Source: a virus
Direction: 5' to 3' (one strand)
Virus record (IMG/VR): IMGVR_UViG_3300042907_000764
Coordinates: 1-35,500 of that record
Length of the DNA: 35,500 nucleotides
The position numbers and the translations under genes were made by a program. The number at the start of each line of letters is the position of its first letter. The stretch's first letter is position 1. Below, piece after piece: positions 1-35,500 of the stretch. The notes beneath the pieces were generated by a model. That model was not told the DNA's origin, searched no databases, and worked only from the letters and a program-made list of their open reading frames with translations.

Positions 1-40
1 GTCTTCCGGCCCACCCCCCAGCTTGCCTCACCCCCCTAGG
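1..40 (-). other. Candidate cos/pac region upstream of the terminase genes
   Basis: On the minus strand this stretch carries two direct copies of GGGGGGTG, 17 bp apart, just upstream of the small terminase on the closed circle. G/C-rich repeated blocks upstream of terS are where cos and pac sites commonly lie. There is no gene here apart from an 11-codon ORF starting in the phosphoesterase stop. Position and composition are the only support, and the cut site cannot be placed. Confidence 0.4.
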
Positions 41-47
41 TGATAGC
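1..47. repeat. Left copy of 47-bp terminal direct repeat
   Basis: These 47 bases recur at 35454-35500 in the same orientation with one difference (A at 20, C at 35473). Such an overlap is what a circular or circularly permuted genome gives when assembled as a linear contig. The repeat lies between the metallophosphoesterase stop and the small terminase start once the circle is closed. Confidence 0.9.
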
Positions 48-11484: not shown

Positions 11485-12109
11485 GGATTGCACCGAAAAA
11501 TGGCAGGCATTGCTGTGTTGGTTTAAAATTGGGATCGTTTAAGGTTCCTTTTGCCCATCGAGGCAGCAGCCATTCTTCATGCTTGTCTTGAAATCCAAGC
11601 ATTCGGACATGCTCAATAATCATGCCGCTTGGAAACTTTAGCTTCCCATTGTTATGTGTCCGCTTGTGGCATTCAGAGCAAAGCGTTTGAAGATCTCTCA
11701 TTTCCTCGCAGAAAAGGTTTTCATAGGTTAGGTGATGGCATTCAAGGCTAGCTTCTGTCTTGCAGGTTACGCAGCACCCGCCATCTTGTACCCTTCTTGC
11801 TTCCCTAGTCTTTCGCCAATGGTCCGACTTGTAGTAGGCATCCTGTATTTCCTTGGTCAACTTGAGCTTGGTAGGAATTTGGTCAATGTCATCTAATCGG
11901 TACGGGTTTTTAAAAGAGCCATCGCCAGAAATAATAAAGCCGTAACAATTGCGTAGCTGCTCGACAGTAGGCGCAAGCCTGCTACCCTTGCCGAGGATTC
12001 CGGTAACTTCACATTCGGTTTTTCTAAGTTTTTCTCCTTGGCGAAGGTGTGCCAATATAAGTTTTTGCGCTTCAATCCTTTCATGGTGTGCCCTAGCTTC
12101 CATGTTCAT
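11474..12109 (-). CDS. HNH endonuclease with helical N-terminus
   Basis: 211 aa. Residues about 112-155 carry 'CCVTCKTEASLECHHLTYEN' then 'LQTLCSECHKRTH', a full HNH/treble-clef zinc motif. The first 90 residues are helical. Its ATG overlaps the helicase-methyltransferase stop (ATGA). Placed between two DNA methyltransferase genes, it could be a nuclease working with them, or a mobile HNH that settled here. The overlap on both sides argues for a stable operon member. Confidence 0.78.
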   Translation of the reverse strand: MNMEARAHHERIEAQKLILAHLRQGEKLRKTECEVTGILGKGSRLAPTVEQLRNCYGFIISGDGSFKNPYRLDDIDQIPTKLKLTKEIQDAYYKSDHWRKTREARRVQDGGCCVTCKTEASLECHHLTYENLFCEEMRDLQTLCSECHKRTHNNGKLKFPSGMIIEHVRMLGFQDKHEEWLLPRWAKGTLNDPNFKPTQQCLPFFGAIHGY

Positions 12110-14328
12110 ACGTATTCCACCTCCGAAAATAGAGACTTGTTTTCAGATTTGGCGTTCTTAAGATTCAAAGATGCCTGCTTCCAATAGCTTTCCTTAAGCT
12201 CGCAACCAACAAACCGCCTACCCATCTGCAGAGAAATAAAGCCTTCAGAACCAATCCCAGCAAATGGTGATAGGACAACATCGCCAGGGTTGGACCACAT
12301 CCGCAGTGCTCGGCGAATCACCTCAAGCTGCAGTGGGCAAATGTGTCGCTCGTCTTCTTCTTCGCGGCAGCTTCTCCGCTGCAATGTGTCCGATGCGTTT
12401 ATGTCCATCCACACAGGCGAAGCAAACTTCTGCCATTCAGCAACAGGGAACTCTTCAGGCTTGTGACTGACTGGGTTGGCGTTCACGCCTGGCTTACGGC
12501 AGACAACCAGATAATCCGGTATGCCTTGCCGGCTAATGGTCGAGTCTTTTCTGAGTTGTTTCCACAGCAGGCCGATAGCTTTGGTTCTCTGCATTGCTGT
12601 GACTGGGTCTTTCCAGATGCAGACTTCGCTGTGATAAATCCAGCCTTCTTCAACATGAATGCGAATAAGCTCGCCACGGAAATCACGCAGGCCTATTTCC
12701 CCATGGTGCGCCTTGCTGCTTGGCAGCAGCATGCAATGAAACGCCGTCAACCTTCCCGGCTTGGTGACGCGGTAAAGATTGCGCACCAAGAATCGGTACT
12801 GCTCTAAAAACTCCTTATCTGTCTTGGTGTTTCCCATGTCACGAGGTGATGCGCTGTAAGTGTACAGGCTGGCAAATGGTGGAGAGTAAACCGAGAAATC
12901 AATAGAATTGCTAGCCATTTCTGCTGTCTCTTCGACGCAGTCGCCAAGCCTCATTTGCCATCCTTCGCCTTCCTCAACCTGTCGCTTGTGTTCCACCTGA
13001 ATGCTCCTCCCATCTTTAAGTTCATCCGTGACAAAAACCGATGCTTCCGCAATCATGCGGTCGGCCATTTCTTTAGCCTGCTTGTCTTTGCGCTCAATGT
13101 TTGCAACAACATTTCCCTCAATGTCAGCCGCCACAAACCACACATCGACATGCCTTTTCTGACCAAAGCGCCAGCACCGGCGGATGGCTTGGTAAACCTG
13201 TTCCCATGAATCATTTAGGCCGACAAAAACCATCTTGTGGCAGTGCTGCCAGTTAAGGCCAAAACCGCACATAGATGGTTTGCCAATAAGAATGCGGATT
13301 TCTCCGCTGGCAAACTCACGTAGGATGCGTTCCTTGGTTTCCTCGTTCTGGTCGCCGCGCAACTCAACCGAACCGGGAATAGCTTCCGCCAAGGCTTCGC
13401 TTTCGCTGTTGAGGTGGCACCAGATAACCCAATGTTCAGAGGTGTTAGACTGAGAAACAATTCCAGCGGCTTCAGTCACTCTCCTATCTACGGTTTTGCG
13501 CTTGGCAGCCAGCCTTTCCTGTAGGGTTGCTGCTTCTATTACGAACAGTTCGCCAGGCATGACGCTGTTGCTGGTAATGGTTGCCAGATGTTGGCGCAGT
13601 TCTGGTAGCTTGTGGCGTGAACCATCAAAACCAATATCTTCAGGTGACTGAAGCAGACATGCCCAGGAGCAGACCCACTTCCAGAACGCTGTGGTGGCGT
13701 GTCCCTTTAGCCGCCACTTCTGGGTTTCCCCGCCATCATGAACAAAATAGGTGGCCAGCATTTCCGCTCGGGTACAGACACCCAGAAACTCGGCATGGCT
13801 GGCAAGCTCCATCCAGTCATTAGGTGCTGGCGTTGCTGTGCTGGCTAGCCGGTAATCAATGCCAGCGGCAAACTCAATTAAATCTGCCTTAGTCGCACCA
13901 TCGTGGTGCTTGATAATGCTCGACTCATCCAGAACAAGGCCTGACCATTCCTCATCCCTAACCATGTGCAGCTTGGCGTAATTAGTCACATAAATGCCAG
14001 GTCCGCCAATGTCCTGAGACGTGCGGATCTTGTTGACCTTTATGCCAAACAGCTCGCCTTCACTTACAATCTGGTCCGACACCGCCAGCGGTGCCAAAAC
14101 TAAAACGCGCCACTTTGACCAGCGTTGAACATTCTCGGCCCACGCCAACTCCATTAGCGTTTTACCCAAGCCGGTACCAGCAAAGATGCATGCTCGCCCT
14201 TTTCGCAGTGCCCAACGGATGATGGCTTGCTGGTAGTCAAAAGCTTCGGAAGGCATAAAGCTTTCCAGAATCTGATTGAATGTGACCGCCCTATCCTTTG
14301 ATGCAATAAATTCCAAGTATTCAGACAT
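12106..14328 (-). CDS. SF2/SNF2-like helicase fused to DNA methyltransferase
   Basis: 740 aa. The N-terminal part is an SF2 ATPase: 'FAGTGLGKT' (Walker A, about residue 51), 'LVLDESS' (motif II, about 134), 'STATP' (motif III) and 'QAIRRCWRFGQKRHV' (motif VI, about 380). The C-terminal 270 residues are an amino-methyltransferase: 'GDCVEET', 'VYSPPF' (catalytic SPPF, about 482) and 'SPFAGIGSEG' (AdoMet site, order-swapped as in beta-class enzymes). It may track along DNA and methylate it, protecting phage DNA. I chose ATG 14328 with AAGGGGGAAG upstream over a TTG at 14376. Both halves look intact. Confidence 0.85.
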   Translation of the reverse strand: MSEYLEFIASKDRAVTFNQILESFMPSEAFDYQQAIIRWALRKGRACIFAGTGLGKTLMELAWAENVQRWSKWRVLVLAPLAVSDQIVSEGELFGIKVNKIRTSQDIGGPGIYVTNYAKLHMVRDEEWSGLVLDESSIIKHHDGATKADLIEFAAGIDYRLASTATPAPNDWMELASHAEFLGVCTRAEMLATYFVHDGGETQKWRLKGHATTAFWKWVCSWACLLQSPEDIGFDGSRHKLPELRQHLATITSNSVMPGELFVIEAATLQERLAAKRKTVDRRVTEAAGIVSQSNTSEHWVIWCHLNSESEALAEAIPGSVELRGDQNEETKERILREFASGEIRILIGKPSMCGFGLNWQHCHKMVFVGLNDSWEQVYQAIRRCWRFGQKRHVDVWFVAADIEGNVVANIERKDKQAKEMADRMIAEASVFVTDELKDGRSIQVEHKRQVEEGEGWQMRLGDCVEETAEMASNSIDFSVYSPPFASLYTYSASPRDMGNTKTDKEFLEQYRFLVRNLYRVTKPGRLTAFHCMLLPSSKAHHGEIGLRDFRGELIRIHVEEGWIYHSEVCIWKDPVTAMQRTKAIGLLWKQLRKDSTISRQGIPDYLVVCRKPGVNANPVSHKPEEFPVAEWQKFASPVWMDINASDTLQRRSCREEEDERHICPLQLEVIRRALRMWSNPGDVVLSPFAGIGSEGFISLQMGRRFVGCELKESYWKQASLNLKNAKSENKSLFSEVEYV

Positions 14329-14381
14329 GACTTCCCCCTTACCCCCAATGGGTTTGCGCTTTTTAAATTGTTTCAACCTTG

Positions 14382-18658: not shown

Positions 18659-18678
18659 TGTGCCTAGATGTGTGCCTG
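18659..18678. repeat. Paired TGTGCCT repeats, HNH side
   Basis: TGTGCCTA at 18659-18666 and TGTGCCTG at 18671-18678, again 12 bp apart and in the same orientation as the other pair. They overlap the last codons of the HNH gene. The 187-bp gap between the pairs (18477-18663) has no gene, is rich in A/T, and is the best place for attP. Confidence 0.55.
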
Positions 18679-18984
18679 GCTAAACCGGCTAAGCATCAGC
18701 GCCGCATCTGCCAGCGCGTGCGGGTTGTGCTTGGTCCAATCTTTGAGGTGGCCGATATAGAAATGGCAGTCGTTGCACAGTGTCAGCAGGTTGGTCGGGT
18801 CTAGCTCGCGGCTGGCATCGAGATGAAATGGCACTAGGTGATGAACTTCAAGCTCTTTAGTAGTGCCGCAGGCAGCGCAGTACGGGTTGGCTCGGACCCA
18901 GCTCCTGCGGACTGCCGGCCATTTGCTGGAGCGGCTAGCGCCCCAGTATTCGCCGACACTCCGCAGCAACCTATCCCAAATCAT
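18664..18984 (-). CDS. HNH endonuclease
   Basis: 106 aa. 'YCAACGTTKELEVHHLVPFH' followed by 'NLLTLCNDCHFYIGHLKDW' is a complete HNH motif with its zinc cysteines. The N-terminus has 'SSKWPAVRRSWVRANP', usual for this subfamily. Its ATG overlaps the upstream stop (ATGA). It is the third HNH in the genome, at the end of the late operon next to the attachment region. It could assist packaging, act on host DNA, or be a mobile element relic. Confidence 0.8.
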   Translation of the reverse strand: MIWDRLLRSVGEYWGASRSSKWPAVRRSWVRANPYCAACGTTKELEVHHLVPFHLDASRELDPTNLLTLCNDCHFYIGHLKDWTKHNPHALADAALMLSRFSQAHI

Positions 18985-19307
18985 TTGGCCAGATGCTTCA
19001 GCAGCGCCGAAATTGCAAACTCAATAATGATTGCCCAGGGGATGAGCGTGAAGGTTTTTGCCTGTGGCTCGGCCTGCTGGTCGAGTGCTGCCTGCAGCCC
19101 CTCGATTACCACGGTCTGGATAGGTGCCGGGTCTGCCAGCGCAGCACCAATGGCTTTTGGCAGTGCAGCCATGCCGTAGCCGTAGGCAACCACGGTCAGC
19201 ACCGACTCGAAAACCTCAACATCCCATTCGTGTTTGCCACGCGCAAAGTCGAGCAAATTGCGAATGCTTACCCCTGGAAACTCTGTGGGAACTCTTAGCG
19301 GATCCAT
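18981..19307 (-). CDS. Small protein with C-terminal membrane helix (holin candidate)
   Basis: 108 aa. It has a moderately hydrophobic stretch near residues 38-60 ('LTVVAYGYGMAALPKAIGAA') and a clear C-terminal one, 'FTLIPWAIIIEFAISALLKH'. ATG 19307 has AGGAGG seven bases upstream. It follows directly after the papain-like peptidase gene. One or two membrane segments next to a possible lysis enzyme fit a holin, but membrane proteins of virion or host-modifying function cannot be excluded. Confidence 0.5.
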   Translation of the reverse strand: MDPLRVPTEFPGVSIRNLLDFARGKHEWDVEVFESVLTVVAYGYGMAALPKAIGAALADPAPIQTVVIEGLQAALDQQAEPQAKTFTLIPWAIIIEFAISALLKHLAK

Positions 19308-19318
19308 AGCCCAACCTC

Positions 19319-20227
19319 CTAGACGATCCAGTCGATTGACTGGTTCTTTGGAAACCCAGTGAACTTGCTGTATGCAAACGAGTCACGCGCTCGCAGCATG
19401 TTGTCAGCAATCTTGGCCTCCACCCACCAACCAGATGCCGGCCCGCCTTCGGGTGCCGGCCCCGTGGTTGAATCGCCGCCCCAGCTATTCACTACGAACA
19501 GGCCGGGCCTACTACCTTTGCGGTAGCCAATGAATGCCATCGAATGGCCCCAGTTACCTGCAGCAGTGCAGAACCCGGCACTATCGCGGCTCATGCGAAA
19601 ACCTTGATTGCTGCAGACGTTAATCCCAAAGCCTTGAGACAAGGCAATACAGGCATCTTCAAAGCTAGTCACTAAGGTGACGCTGCCGACTGGATTCTTT
19701 TTGGCAATTGCCTCTAGCTCATTCGGACAGCCTGCACCTGGTGCACCCCATTTGCGTGCGCGTGCGCCATCGTATTTAGTCAGGTCGTGTGAACCGTAGA
19801 CATCCTGCGGAACCACGCCCCACAGATTGACCCACTTAGCTGCCCATGCGCCAACGCTGCCATCACCACGGATGCGGCCACCGCCAACCTCGACACGGCT
19901 GCCAGCGTAGATGACCTCCATTGATGGCGTTTTCGGCTGTTCATGGTCGCCGCGTTTAATCTCGCTGATTTGCGTGAATAACATGGCCGCGCTGGTTCCG
20001 AATGAAACGCAGGTGCCGTAGCTGCCCTGGTTGAAAATCGGCCAAGGCTTGCCAGCTATTTCCTCGTACTCTTTCCAGCCATAGACATGGTCTGGGATTT
20101 CGTCGAATGACACAGCACCGGCATCGGTTGCGCCAAAGTTTGACCAGGGCAGATCCTGCACCACCTCGGTGACTGCCTCTTGATCATCTACCCAGCCTGT
20201 GGCGTACTCGGTCAGTTCGTCACTCAT
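19319..20227 (-). CDS. Papain-like (C1-type) cysteine peptidase
   Basis: 302 aa. The catalytic triad is visible in order: 'NQGSYGTCVSFGTSAAM' (Gln67 oxyanion, Cys73), 'NWGHSMAFIGY' (His228) and 'FVVNSWGG' (Asn247). No signal peptide; residues 1-60 are acidic and could be a propeptide or targeting part. The ATG overlaps the previous stop (ATGA). Position after tail genes and between two membrane-protein genes suggests an endolysin-like role against a protein-rich envelope, or processing of virion proteins. The peptidase assignment is strong; the lysis role is inference. Confidence 0.85.
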   Translation of the reverse strand: MSDELTEYATGWVDDQEAVTEVVQDLPWSNFGATDAGAVSFDEIPDHVYGWKEYEEIAGKPWPIFNQGSYGTCVSFGTSAAMLFTQISEIKRGDHEQPKTPSMEVIYAGSRVEVGGGRIRGDGSVGAWAAKWVNLWGVVPQDVYGSHDLTKYDGARARKWGAPGAGCPNELEAIAKKNPVGSVTLVTSFEDACIALSQGFGINVCSNQGFRMSRDSAGFCTAAGNWGHSMAFIGYRKGSRPGLFVVNSWGGDSTTGPAPEGGPASGWWVEAKIADNMLRARDSFAYSKFTGFPKNQSIDWIV

Positions 20228-20901
20228 TTCGCCAGCTCCTCCAATACATAACCAAGACGGCTGAAATAGCTGGCCGCCTTGCTGGCGAGCGCTGGAGTTA
20301 GCTGCGCTGTTGGCTGGTCACCTAGTTGCCGAATGGTTTCCTGCGCGATGCGCTCCCTAATAGAGCGAATGGCGCCAGATGGGACTACTTCGCTGGCACT
20401 TGTCTTGATGCCGCCGTAGAGCGTGCCAAGGTCGGCAAACTGGTCAACGGTAGCGGCTGCTCGGCGGTAGATGCCTGCCAAAGCCTTGACGTGCTTTTCC
20501 TTATCTTGCTCCTGCAATCCGCCATAGATGCCGATTAGCGCATCGAGCAGTTTGTCTTTGTCTGGCGTAGGCGGCGTAGGTGGTATTGGCTCGGGCGGCA
20601 CATTGTCAGGCTTGCCACCGCCAATAACAACCTTGCAGATCTGCGGCTCGCTGGGAATATCCCCAGCAGCGGTGTAGGCCAGCAGTCTGTAGGTGCCGGC
20701 TTTTGCGGCCACCACAACAGTCGCTTTTTGGTTGGCCAGCAGCGCTGCGGGGAAGACCGATAGGCCTGAATCGATTGGATAAAACTTGACTTGTTTGTTA
20801 TTCGTTTCAGCAATCACAGTGACAAACGCAGCAACTTCGCCTGTGACTTCGGCTGGAATCTTGAGGTCTTGCCCAGCCAGTAAAATTAGCGCCCAAATCA
20901 T
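20224..20901 (-). CDS. Secreted or envelope protein with Ig-like and helical domains
   Basis: 225 aa. It starts with a short hydrophobic segment, 'MIWALILLAGQDL', that may be an export signal. Residues 15-95 look like a beta-sandwich ('ATVVVAAKAGTYRLLAYTAA'). A proline linker (PPEPIPPTPPTPDKDK) leads to a helical domain of about 110 residues. This 'signal, Ig-like, Pro linker, helical' layout is one I associate with planctomycete phage and host proteins. It is coupled to the peptidase gene by ATGA and could be its partner or inhibitor. Confidence 0.5.
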   Translation of the reverse strand: MIWALILLAGQDLKIPAEVTGEVAAFVTVIAETNNKQVKFYPIDSGLSVFPAALLANQKATVVVAAKAGTYRLLAYTAAGDIPSEPQICKVVIGGGKPDNVPPEPIPPTPPTPDKDKLLDALIGIYGGLQEQDKEKHVKALAGIYRRAAATVDQFADLGTLYGGIKTSASEVVPSGAIRSIRERIAQETIRQLGDQPTAQLTPALASKAASYFSRLGYVLEELAK

Positions 20902-21135
20902 TTAGTCTCTCCGCAGACAGGTGATGTCGTTTATTCTGGTATGCACTTCTTTGATGCTTTCTGCGATGGTTTTGTTTGTTTGTTCAAGCGATGTTAGGAA
21001 ATCGAAGTGCCTATTACGCAGCGGAACTAATAGCTCTTTGCCTAGCCAACTGCCAGCAGTCCAGATGGCGTAGCCCATGCCTGCGATAATCACGGCAGGG
21101 AATCCTAGGTCACGAGCGGCAGTTATCCAGTCCAT
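20902..21135 (-). CDS. Small membrane protein, holin-like candidate
   Basis: 77 aa. One membrane helix near the N-terminus ('FPAVIIAGMGYAIWTAGSWL'), a basic junction (PLRNRH), then a helical cytoplasmic or periplasmic tail ('LTSLEQTNKTIAESIKEVHT'). That layout is common among small phage holin-like proteins. ATG 21135 has AGGAG nine bases upstream. It starts the 21135-18664 cassette with the secreted protein and papain-like peptidase. Confidence 0.5.
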   Translation of the reverse strand: MDWITAARDLGFPAVIIAGMGYAIWTAGSWLGKELLVPLRNRHFDFLTSLEQTNKTIAESIKEVHTRINDITCLRRD

Positions 21136-29664: not shown

Positions 29665-31629
29665 TTAGGCTTGAACCATGTGCTTGATCGCACCGCTGGC
29701 CAAGATCTTGCTGTCAGTTCTGGCCCATGCCGTGAATCCAACTGCACCGTTAGCGGCATAGAGCTCGTCGAGCCTTTGGATGCGGATATTAGCCACATCG
29801 CGGATCAGGAACTTGTTCATGGCACCGAACACCATCGTCTTGAGGCCAGTGGTGATGGCGCTGTTCAGGCTGTTGCTGATTACCAGCGGGAAGCCATGAA
29901 TGCGAATCTCACCAGGGATGCGGTAAGACTCCTGGAACAATGGCTGGCCGTTGCTGTCCACCAGCTTGCGCACATACAGCCAAACGCTGTCGTGCATCAC
30001 CAGAGCGCAAGAAGGATCTTGGCGATAGGCGATGTCGACGCTGTGAATCAGGTCGAGGATTTCGGCTGATGTGATAGCGGTTGCGCTGGCAGTGGTCTTG
30101 CCTGCGGTGCTGGCTGCAATGCCTGTTGGTTGGCTGGAGCCTGTGCCGGTTGCGACATAGTCAGCCATGATTCGGCCAAGACGCTCGCCGAGCAGGTCGC
30201 CGATATAGGTTTCGAGGTCAACAGCGTTGTCGTCCAAGAGCTGCCAAGATACCTTGAGCGCCTTGCTACTCATGGTGTAGGCACCAAGAGAGATCTGGCC
30301 GAATGAGGTATCGGCTACAGTGAGTGCGCCATCTTCGGCCAACAGCACGCCTTTGGTGCCGGTGTCGTCGTTGGTTGGCATGGTCATCGGCTCGCCAGAC
30401 TCGGTGCGCAGCACCTGAGCGTATTCGCGCAGCGGGTTGAAATAAAGCAGCGCCTTTTCGATGCGCTCGACCAGGACAGTCGGCACGTTAAAACCGCCGA
30501 GGCTGCCGGTGCTAATCACCTGTGTGGCTGTGCCGCGCTCTTCCAACTCACGCCTGCTGCGAGGCGCGGTGTCAAACAAGCGAACATTGAAATCGCGGCT
30601 ACGCAGGCTAACACCAACGCGCTCAGCGGCGGCTCGGTGCGCATCAGTCGCGCGGCCATTGCCTTCTAGGAACCAGCCACGCATGGCCAGCTTGCGATCA
30701 TTGTGGTAGTTTTTATCTGCAACATCCTTCACGATGTAAGGCGTGTTCAATGGCATGGGTTTGCTCCTGCGGGTGGTCTGGGATTCCAACTTTTCCAATA
30801 GGCTGGCGCAACGCGCGCCAACCAAATCCAATTTCCTTTCAGCCTCGGCAGCCTTGTCAGCGCCGGCCATCTCCTCTTCTGGCACAAAGTTCATGGCCTC
30901 CTCGATGGCGGCCACCCGCGCATCGAGATCGGCAACGCCTTGGACTAGTGCGTCCATGGCGGCTTGCTCTTCTGGAGTGAGCGCGCGAATCTGCTCAATC
31001 AGCGCGGCTCGCTCGTCAATCAACTTTTTCAATTCGGCAACCTTTTCCATGTGAATCTCCTTTGAGTCAGAAAATAAAACACTGGCAGCACGATAGCCGT
31101 GCGATGCAAGCCATCGCGCGCGCCTGATTTCAAACTCCACTTGTCGCAGGCCGCGCAAGGCAACAGTGGTATCCGGGTAAGCAGGTATCGAAACAACCGA
31201 TACCTCATGTAGATCTATGCTGTTTAGCGTTCTCAGTGCGTTGCCGTATTCGTCCTTGTCCCAAGTGTCGCCACCGGGTGGCACAAGAAAGCCGAATGAC
31301 ATTTGGTTCACCACGCCAGAGCGCACCAACTGGCGCAGGTCGTCGGCGTAGCTCACACCTTCAGGCAAATCTATTTCAACTCGCAGGCCGCGCTTGTCGC
31401 TGGAAACCTTGAGAGAACCGTTGGTTGTCCTGGCTAATGGCTGGCTGGTGTTGTGGTCCCAAAGCGCTCTAATGTCGGCGTTGTTTTCGAGTGACTTGTC
31501 GAATGCGCCAGGTGTAATCTTTTCCCTGAATCCGCCTAAGTCTTCGCTCAATGCAGGCGCGTAAACTGCAGCATAACCGACCAGCTTGCCGCCTTCCTGC
31601 TCAAGTTTGCTAGTTCGTTTTTCGAGCAT
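29665..31629 (-). CDS. Prohead protease fused to HK97-type major capsid protein
   Basis: 654 aa in one frame. Residues 1-165 are an S78-type prohead protease: 'VGYAAVYAPALSEDLGGFRE', 'LWDHN' (His59), 'NQMSFGF' (Ser111) and 'HEVSVVSIPAYP' (Glu142). Residues 194-290 are an acidic coiled coil, like the capsid delta/scaffold domain. From about 300 the HK97 fold follows, with 'GGFNVPTVLVERIEKAL' and 'DRA-type' loop regions up to 'GFTAWARTDSKIL'. Elsewhere protease and capsid are usually separate. An internal ATG (31050) with a perfect ribosome site probably makes capsid protein alone. Start ATG 31629 has GAGGAGG. Confidence 0.88.
   Translation of the reverse strand: MLEKRTSKLEQEGGKLVGYAAVYAPALSEDLGGFREKITPGAFDKSLENNADIRALWDHNTSQPLARTTNGSLKVSSDKRGLRVEIDLPEGVSYADDLRQLVRSGVVNQMSFGFLVPPGGDTWDKDEYGNALRTLNSIDLHEVSVVSIPAYPDTTVALRGLRQVEFEIRRARWLASHGYRAASVLFSDSKEIHMEKVAELKKLIDERAALIEQIRALTPEEQAAMDALVQGVADLDARVAAIEEAMNFVPEEEMAGADKAAEAERKLDLVGARCASLLEKLESQTTRRSKPMPLNTPYIVKDVADKNYHNDRKLAMRGWFLEGNGRATDAHRAAAERVGVSLRSRDFNVRLFDTAPRSRRELEERGTATQVISTGSLGGFNVPTVLVERIEKALLYFNPLREYAQVLRTESGEPMTMPTNDDTGTKGVLLAEDGALTVADTSFGQISLGAYTMSSKALKVSWQLLDDNAVDLETYIGDLLGERLGRIMADYVATGTGSSQPTGIAASTAGKTTASATAITSAEILDLIHSVDIAYRQDPSCALVMHDSVWLYVRKLVDSNGQPLFQESYRIPGEIRIHGFPLVISNSLNSAITTGLKTMVFGAMNKFLIRDVANIRIQRLDELYAANGAVGFTAWARTDSKILASGAIKHMVQA
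30754..30768 (-). promoter_or_regulatory. Possible second internal start at the capsid body
   Basis: AGGAGCAAACCCATG places an ATG (30756) in frame at 'MPLNTPYIVK', at the end of the coiled-coil domain, near where the mature capsid chain would begin. It would give 363 residues. The match may be accidental; the spacing of eight bases is acceptable. Confidence 0.4.
31048..31063 (-). promoter_or_regulatory. Internal ribosome site for capsid protein alone
   Basis: Minus strand reads AAAGGAGATTCACATG, an ideal Shine-Dalgarno and spacing, inside the open protease-capsid frame at codon 194. Translation here would give 461 residues starting 'MEKVAELKK', exactly where the delta domain begins. This would supply many capsid subunits per protease fusion. 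Confidence 0.75.
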
Positions 31630-32947
31630 TGCCGCCTCCTCGTTTGCGTGTTGGTGTGTCCCCGACACTGGCTGGGTTAGGGCTAGCGCTGGGCGAAAGC
31701 GCGGGGACCAGTGCCGGGGTGGCTGATGGCGCTGAAGGGCCGTTTGGCGCACTCAGCGGTTGCATGTTGAGCGGTTGCAGATACTGGTCGCCACCCTCGA
31801 TTGGCGGCAGGTTTTCACGCTCGCGTATCTCGTTGGTTGAGAGAATGCCCCAGTTCTTCGCAACCGCATAGACTTCATAACGGGTCTTAATATCCGCTCT
31901 TAACAGGCCTTCGATTAGATGCTCAAAGTAGTATTCTCGGCGCTCGACTGTGTTCAGCAGTTTTATCTGCAGTTCTTGCTCCAGGCGAATTAGCCAGGGG
32001 CGAAGTGTCTCGGTGTAAAACGCTTGGTTTTCAGCCTCGATGCTTGAGTAGGTCTGGCCGGTGTTGTCCCGTAGTTTGCTCGATGGACAGTTAAACCAAC
32101 GAGCCACCTCGGCAACTTGGAACTGCCGAGTCTGCAAAAACTGCGCATCGTCTGGCGGCACACCAAGCGCCTGCCATTTCATGCCTTCCTCAAGGATTGC
32201 AATTCGGTGAGCATTGTCGAGGCCGCTGTGCAGGCGCTCATAGTCGCCACGCAAACGCTGCCGTGCGTCGTCGCTCAATCTGCCTGGGTGTTCCAACACA
32301 CCAGATGGCCTAGCTCCAGTGCCAAACAGCTTGGCACCAAACTTCTCGGCAGCCAATGTCAAGCCTAAGCTCTCACGAGCAGTGCGAACCACGCTGTAGC
32401 CCATCACGCCATCACCACCGAGGCCGCGTAAATGAATGACATTGGCACCGGCAAGAGTGACATGGCCGCCTTGCGGTTGGCGCACTTTGTAGTAGATGTT
32501 GCCGTCCACTTCGCGGTATGGCTCTACGCGCTCTGGTGCGAGTAGCCACAGCGCCACAGGCACGCCATCGCTAGCTCTGCGCTCAATCTCGGCGTAGCCG
32601 TTGCCGTAGGTCAGAGCGTGCGCAAACAGGCTTTCACGAAACACCAGCGAACCGATGCCAGGGCAAGGCTCGTCGTGCAGCAAACCATAGAGCGGGTGCT
32701 CGCTGGCTCGGGTGCGGGTGGCTCCGTCTCGGCGGTAGGTGATTAGCGGTAGGCTGGCAGCGCCTTCAGAAATCACACGCACTGCAGCCCACACGGTGGC
32801 GCAACTGAGTGCGCTTGCCTCATCGACACGCACTCCCGACTCGGTGTTCCTACCGCCTAACAAATCTATCAAGGCAGGATTATTGAGCACCGCAGCGGGT
32901 GATATGCGCTTCTGCAATCCGAATATGCGCTGAATGAAATTAGCCAT
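31610..32947 (-). CDS. Portal protein (HK97 family)
   Basis: 445 aa from ATG 32947. 'SALSCATVWAAVRVISEGAA' and 'LPLITYRRDG' open the wing; 'VFRESLFAHALTYGNGYAEI', 'HLRGLGGDGVMGYSVV' and 'VAEVARWFNCPSSKLRDN' are classic HK97 portal signatures; 'NWGILSTNEIRERENLPPIE' is near the end. The C-terminal tail is Pro/Ser/Ala low-complexity. It forms the dodecameric DNA channel. It overlaps the protease start by 20 bases. No strong ribosome site is seen at this ATG or at the one four codons upstream. Confidence 0.9.
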   Translation of the reverse strand: MANFIQRIFGLQKRISPAAVLNNPALIDLLGGRNTESGVRVDEASALSCATVWAAVRVISEGAASLPLITYRRDGATRTRASEHPLYGLLHDEPCPGIGSLVFRESLFAHALTYGNGYAEIERRASDGVPVALWLLAPERVEPYREVDGNIYYKVRQPQGGHVTLAGANVIHLRGLGGDGVMGYSVVRTARESLGLTLAAEKFGAKLFGTGARPSGVLEHPGRLSDDARQRLRGDYERLHSGLDNAHRIAILEEGMKWQALGVPPDDAQFLQTRQFQVAEVARWFNCPSSKLRDNTGQTYSSIEAENQAFYTETLRPWLIRLEQELQIKLLNTVERREYYFEHLIEGLLRADIKTRYEVYAVAKNWGILSTNEIRERENLPPIEGGDQYLQPLNMQPLSAPNGPSAPSATPALVPALSPSASPNPASVGDTPTRKRGGGNARKTN

Positions 32948-32976: not shown

Positions 32977-33420
32977 TCAGCGCCAAACGCAGATAGCCCA
33001 CTGGTGGTAAACAGCACCGAGCCTGTCCACCTCATGCCAAGATTTCATCCAGGTGCGCTTGCCAGATCGGCAAGGTCCCTCGGTGCTGCATTGATAATGG
33101 ATGGTTGAAGTGTCTATTCCGGCAACTACCACATAGTGACCAATGCCGTGCGCTGGTGTGGTCAGACAAATGATGGCGCGGTCTGTTAAGGTGAATGCTT
33201 TAAGGTCGTCCCATTGCATACTGCCTGCCAGCACATGGCAGCCAATTGAGCGGAAAAATGCCTCGATGCTGCGCGGGTCGGTGCCGTCTAGGCTGGTGCA
33301 GTTTAGGATTTGGAAATGGCTGGCCTTGGGTCTGCGCTTGATGTGGCGCAGCACTACCTGCACAGCAACCAGCCCGCAGTCATGATCACCCGACTGCCGC
33401 AGGTCAGGCAGAGAAATCAC
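32977..33420 (-). CDS. C39-like cysteine peptidase in the packaging module
   Basis: 147 aa. The motif 'RQSGDHDCGLVAVQVVLRHI' gives Gln9 and catalytic Cys15, followed by 'GIGHYVVVAGID' with His95 and Asp103: the layout of C39/papain-like peptidases such as those that cleave Gly-Gly leaders. There is no transporter or signal peptide. GTG 33420 overlaps the large terminase stop (GTGA). Its place between terminase and portal is odd. It may process a head protein, act in the host, or be a non-catalytic fold relative; the triad looks complete. Confidence 0.7.
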   Translation of the reverse strand: MISLPDLRQSGDHDCGLVAVQVVLRHIKRRPKASHFQILNCTSLDGTDPRSIEAFFRSIGCHVLAGSMQWDDLKAFTLTDRAIICLTTPAHGIGHYVVVAGIDTSTIHYQCSTEGPCRSGKRTWMKSWHEVDRLGAVYHQWAICVWR

Positions 33421-35453: not shown

Positions 35454-35500
35454 GTCTTCCGGCCCACCCCCCCGCTTGCCTCACCCCCCTAGGTGATAGC
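35454..35500. repeat. Right copy of 47-bp terminal direct repeat
   Basis: Matches bases 1-47 at 46 of 47 positions. Closing the circle here gives about 35,453 bp. The single mismatch sits at the edge of a C-run, so it may be a population variant or a homopolymer error. Confidence 0.9.

Follow-up and report, generated by a model that had tools for sequence, protein, structure and literature searches.

The virus record IMGVR_UViG_3300042907_000764 of IMG/VR (positions 1 to 35,500; this whole 35.5 kb stretch is referred to below as the window) carries four co-directional genes on its minus strand (18981-21135), which in reading order encode proteins of 77, 225, 302 and 108 aa. We read these genes as a lysis cassette with a C1-type cysteine peptidase as its endolysin, and from the sequence analyses collected here we put the probability of this reading at about 0.6. 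A lysis-like cassette centred on the peptidase had been proposed in a preliminary description of this DNA, and the linkage of the genes, their membrane context and the absence of a canonical endolysin in the relatives scanned support the proposal. Should the lysis role be true, the papain-type peptidase would probably be an enzyme type not previously recognised as a phage lysis enzyme, and a whole phage lineage would have swapped the classical endolysin for a cysteine peptidase. A literature search found no study on phage lysis of planctomycetes, which appears undescribed; the cassette, if correctly read, would provide a handle on planctomycete envelope architecture, testable in the cultured host Planctopirus limnophila with its element pPLIM01.

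The four genes and the papain-type peptidase

A direct repeat of 47 bases with 46 identities (one mismatch) is found at both ends of the window (1-47 and 35454-35500), and the record is therefore probably a complete virus genome, circularly permuted or terminally redundant. Nearly all genes lie on the minus strand, in the order TerL, a C39-family peptidase, portal, a fusion of S78 protease and capsid protein, connectors and tail genes with the tape measure, followed by a glycosyltransferase, the cassette, an HNH gene, an integrase and replication genes. The S78 prohead protease and the HK97-type major capsid protein share one fused ORF (29665..31752, minus strand; Pfam Peptidase_S78 8.4e-44, Phage_capsid 2.4e-55), while two ORFs encode them in the relative G007. 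A further ORF of 756 aa (12106-14376) apparently joins a SNF2-like helicase to a DNA methylase domain.

Within the cassette, all on the minus strand, the 77-aa product (20902..21135) is a small membrane protein with an N-terminal, weakly hydrophobic TM segment and a coiled-coil-like tail, which makes it a candidate holin or inner-membrane spanin-like protein. It is followed by the 225-aa partner protein (20224..20901), the 302-aa peptidase (19319..20227) and a 108-aa protein (18981..19307) predicted to be tail-anchored by a C-terminal hydrophobic segment, whose gene is kept behind the peptidase in most relatives. The partner and peptidase genes share a 4-bp ATGA overlap, and each of the four genes is preceded by a purine-rich, Shine-Dalgarno-like stretch. 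Comparison with three relatives gave dN/dS values of 0.02-0.10 for all four genes (0.03-0.08 for the 77-aa protein), similar to those of the portal gene; all four are under strong purifying selection. The HNH endonuclease gene downstream (18664..18984, minus strand; Pfam HNH 1.1e-7) shows values above these (0.16-0.24) and is probably a neighbour outside the lysis function. Neither the 77-aa protein nor the other small TM proteins gave a significant match to a holin or spanin family in profile searches, the best scores being insignificant (holin 0.18, Rz-like 0.02-0.3).

The AlphaFold model of the 302-aa protein (pLDDT 91.6, pTM 0.91) has the fold of papain, with structural alignments that span about 200-247 residues and Z scores of 23.4 against xylellain (3ois) and about 19-21 against cathepsins and papain. 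The predicted catalytic residues are C73 (codon 20009-20011), H228 (19544-19546) and N247 (19487-19489), together with Q67. Among 120 homologues, counted where aligned, the Cys is found in 114/114, the His in 118/118 and the Gln in 111/112, and the Asn in 109 of 117, with Gln replacing it in the other eight. From these residues and the model, it is very likely that the protein acts as a cysteine peptidase, and the initial description of a papain-like peptidase with an intact triad, lying among membrane proteins of 77 and 108 aa and an Ig-like protein, was borne out by ORFs, residues and fold. That description overlooked a second papain-fold enzyme elsewhere in the genome, considered below.

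As a single query the peptidase found no real relative in Pfam, PHROGs, NCBIfam, the PDB (by phmmer) or phage records, and its relatives were recognised through family alignments, first built with sequences from 25 IMG/VR loci. In the family Q67, C73 and H228 are invariant, and there is a signature, RGDGSVGAWAAK. Searches with Pfam gave Peptidase_C1 matches for 7 of 18 members (best 1.3e-6) and none for the window protein; the family profile in turn picks up plant C1 proteases (6e-5). No peptidoglycan-hydrolase domain was recognised in the cassette enzyme by Pfam, PHROGs and NCBIfam searches, and it is therefore not placed in any known endolysin family. C1A papains normally cleave proteins made of L-amino acids, which counts against the lysis reading. 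One homologue (L065:1-1056) apparently holds an intein, the C-terminal end of which (...HYLHTFLEGSGAAISN) abuts the catalytic Cys (CVSQG).

Linkage, export and hosts

The 225-aa partner consists of a short hydrophobic N-terminus, a BIG2/PKD-like Ig domain (about residues 12-95), a Pro-rich linker and a five-helix domain (117-224). Its AlphaFold model has a pLDDT of 90.5, and a fold search covering the Ig domain returned structural matches with Z scores of 8-10.7. It had been described as an exported Ig-like protein; export is clearer in the homologues than in the window copy, which has a hydrophobic stretch of only about 9 residues. The bacterial copies frequently have, beside the peptidase, a shorter protein that is a lipoprotein or anchored by a TM segment, and the helical domain appears to be common to these and to the Ig partners (profile comparison, E 1e-4, probability 58).

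The Ig partner is encoded at 80 IMG/VR loci, and at 78 of these the peptidase was detected beside it by HMM; at one further locus (L210) it is present but uncalled, and at another (L202) the contig ends beside the partner. Wherever the contig allows, the linkage is thus obligate across the 80 loci. The overlap is exactly 4 bp in 58 partner-peptidase pairs, and in one case (L173, 3763-5211) the two form an in-frame fusion that is led by the export signal of the partner and lacks the first ~40 residues of the peptidase. Homologues of the 77-aa protein occur at 30 IMG/VR loci, nearly all adjoining Ig partner and peptidase. At four loci, including that of P. limnophila, the partner ORF also encodes holin-like TM segments, which precede its lipobox or hydrophobic export segment.

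Several lines of evidence place the module at the envelope. Across 15 viral contigs, 30 small TM genes were found at most three genes from the peptidase against 10.9 expected, and the gene upstream of the peptidase is exported in 11 contigs against 1.3 expected, values reached in none of 2000 resamplings in either case. The window's own peptidase copy has no signal or anchor; several homologues carry an N-terminal hydrophobic segment of their own, and this anchor changed at least five times on the tree, counted on well-supported branches and leaving out L068, whose hydrophobic stretch is an upstream start artefact (that of L173 belongs to the partner fusion). Exported thioredoxin-like proteins, identified by Pfam, adjoin five chromosomal copies (L099, L101, L104, L106, L107) and fit a cysteine enzyme acting outside the cytoplasm. 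Because of the enrichment in TM genes, the exported upstream gene, the anchors and the thioredoxin neighbours, we consider it very likely that the module has its site of action at the inner membrane or outside it.

A planctomycete host had been suspected, and the bacterial homologues found are all in Planctomycetota: an exact-motif scan of 84,980 species' genomes, which was not exhaustive, returned seven loci, all seven from this phylum and mostly from Gemmataceae. The cassette peptidase is present in 14 of 392 sampled Planctomycetota genomes, and TerL relatives in 17 of 95 Gemmataceae genomes, which together support Planctomycetota as the hosts of this virus and its relatives. Among 50,697 phage records there was no match to the partner or to the three peptidases tested. 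A plasmid search gave one weak match, pPLIM01 of P. limnophila (L266, NC_014149.1), a circle of 37,010 bp with genes for TerL, portal, head protease, capsid, tape measure, tail, integrase, ParB and Gam, which reads as a complete phage-plasmid of this cultured species; its cassette comprises three hypothetical proteins, among them PLIM_RS21795 as the partner and PLIM_RS21800 as the peptidase, and stands just ahead of an HNH gene and TerL. The proposed survey of planctomycete phages thus reveals a widespread cassette, at the 80 IMG/VR loci with an Ig partner and in pPLIM01.

The probable lysis role and its alternatives

The preliminary description recognised no peptidoglycan hydrolase in the genome and named the discovery of one elsewhere as evidence against its proposal. 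None was found by Pfam in the 57 candidate proteins of the window, among the best 25 of 28 families listed, nor in two closed relatives (G420, with a 127-bp terminal repeat, and G426) and in G421, the matches seen in G426 and G421 having E values up to 1e-7; divergent hydrolases can escape Pfam. A six-frame search of 21 contigs, the window included, found neither Amidase_2 nor Phage_lysozyme; the annotations of pPLIM01 list no lysin, and none was recognised by eye in the TerL relative G011. At the loci with the Ig partner or the 77-aa protein, the slot holds the peptidase only and no classical endolysin, whose presence instead of the peptidase would have been the clearest sign of a lysis slot. 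No cell-wall-binding domain was recognised.

The second enzyme of the papain clan is encoded between TerL and portal (32977..33420, minus strand) and has a Peptidase_C39 domain (Pfam 1.5e-8). It could itself be the lysin in place of the papain enzyme, given its fold, the conservation of its gene (dN/dS 0.05-0.15) and the occurrence of C39-like N5 domains in mycobacteriophage lysins. It is kept in the window's near relatives, in G007 and in G416. However, it has no membrane genes nearby, and beyond the near relatives and G007 only one of 17 other virus contigs with the papain cassette has it, the remaining 16 lacking it, which makes this the least probable of the alternatives, and a very improbable one.

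A role in the virion, with the peptidase packaged for entry or maturing tail or fibre proteins and the Ig partner serving as a decoration protein, would be in keeping with the resemblance of BIG2-like Ig domains to phage decoration and tail proteins, with the position of the cassette inside tail-fibre gene blocks in L239-L251 and with its place immediately before the capsid gene in G421. The signal peptides or lipoboxes of the partners and the membrane anchors of many peptidases are, however, unsuited to virions assembled in the cytoplasm, and dedicated head proteases exist, so that we regard this role as improbable. A prohead maturation protease, the structural role that had been named as the competing outcome, was rejected for the papain enzyme, since a separate S78 protease is fused to the capsid protein in the window, G421 also has an S78 protease and pPLIM01 a ClpP-like one.

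The main caution comes from bacterial chromosomes. Four cassettes (L069, L074, L104 and L106, at about 9-12 kb in each locus) lie amid housekeeping genes, and up to 10 kb away no phage genes were recognised; one of them (L104) has five membrane or export genes as well as an exported thioredoxin. These copies may be remnants or lysis modules that have been domesticated, or they may point to a different function, and another or additional role of the module is therefore possible. Such a role could be that of a moron, remodelling the envelope or excluding superinfection by altering the host surface, for instance by cutting receptors, without lysis. The stand-alone copies would fit this, as would the integrase present in 13 of 21 cassette contigs, which in the window lies two genes away from the cassette. 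Yet the cassette also occurs in large contigs in which no integrase was detected (G413, G414, G417, G422, G423 and G428, which may be fragments), in many lineages it lies inside late regions of tail-fibre or terminase genes, and the phages would be left without any lysis gene; we therefore judge a moron unlikely, though less so than a virion role.

We favour lysis because no other hydrolase was recognised, the head proteases are separate and papain-clan enzymes have a precedent in lysins; the act of lysis, its steps, the substrate and the assignment of holin or spanin functions are all what we infer from this evidence. Late in infection, the 77-aa and 108-aa membrane proteins and the exported Ig-helical partner would build up in the envelope, and the cytoplasmic peptidase would cross or leave through the inner membrane once a holin-like protein permeabilises it. 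In several relatives the peptidase would already be outside, tethered by its own signal anchor in the manner of a SAR endolysin. There it might dock on the partner and cut peptide bonds of the envelope, either in the stem peptides of peptidoglycan or in proteins that tie the wall to the outer membrane, after which the cell would burst.

The earlier rationale, lysis by proteolysis of a protein-rich planctomycete envelope, is outdated: planctomycetes, Gemmata included, have peptidoglycan that contains DAP and is sensitive to lysozyme (PMC4432640). A protein wall is for this reason one of two possible substrates, and, given lysis, we see peptidoglycan peptides and envelope proteins as about evenly balanced candidates. 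A bolder version, which we advance tentatively and regard as doubtful, would have Planctomycetota phages share a dedicated C1 papain lysis machine whose Ig-helical partner is tethered to the membrane and which in some cases includes an exported thioredoxin. This machine would open the envelope by cutting its proteins (and disulfides) and not the glycan or amide bonds of peptidoglycan, and host chromosomes would have domesticated it too.

Comparison with known systems

The peptidase resembles the papain family C1 (xylellain, cathepsins, papain) in its fold over nearly the whole length and in the Gln-Cys-His-Asn set, but differs from it in an identity of about 15%, in its own signatures (RGDGSVGAWAAK and SNQGF) and in being encoded by phages beside membrane proteins. 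The cassette as a whole is reminiscent of the holin-endolysin-spanin cassettes of Gram-negative phages, with which it shares its late position and a compact, co-directional arrangement in which a hydrolase is accompanied by small membrane proteins and by a partner that is exported or a lipoprotein; unlike these, it has a C1-type peptidase without a known peptidoglycan-hydrolase domain and lacks significant holin or spanin homology. The N-terminal anchors of several homologues, and the coexistence of anchored and anchorless forms in one family, recall the SAR endolysins (P1 Lyz), a likeness that rests on predicted anchors, whereas the window peptidase is a different enzyme and has no anchor.

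A parallel in enzyme type is offered by mycobacteriophage LysA proteins with an N5 domain, likewise a papain-clan cysteine peptidase of the papain family (PMC3314691), and Foldseek gave weak matches between the window peptidase and Lysin A (E 3e-4, about 108 columns). The N5 domain is C39-like and in most cases belongs to a multidomain lysin that also has an amidase or glycosidase and binding domains; the L5 lysin, for its part, consists solely of a peptidase and a presumed binding domain and lyses cells (PMC3314691).
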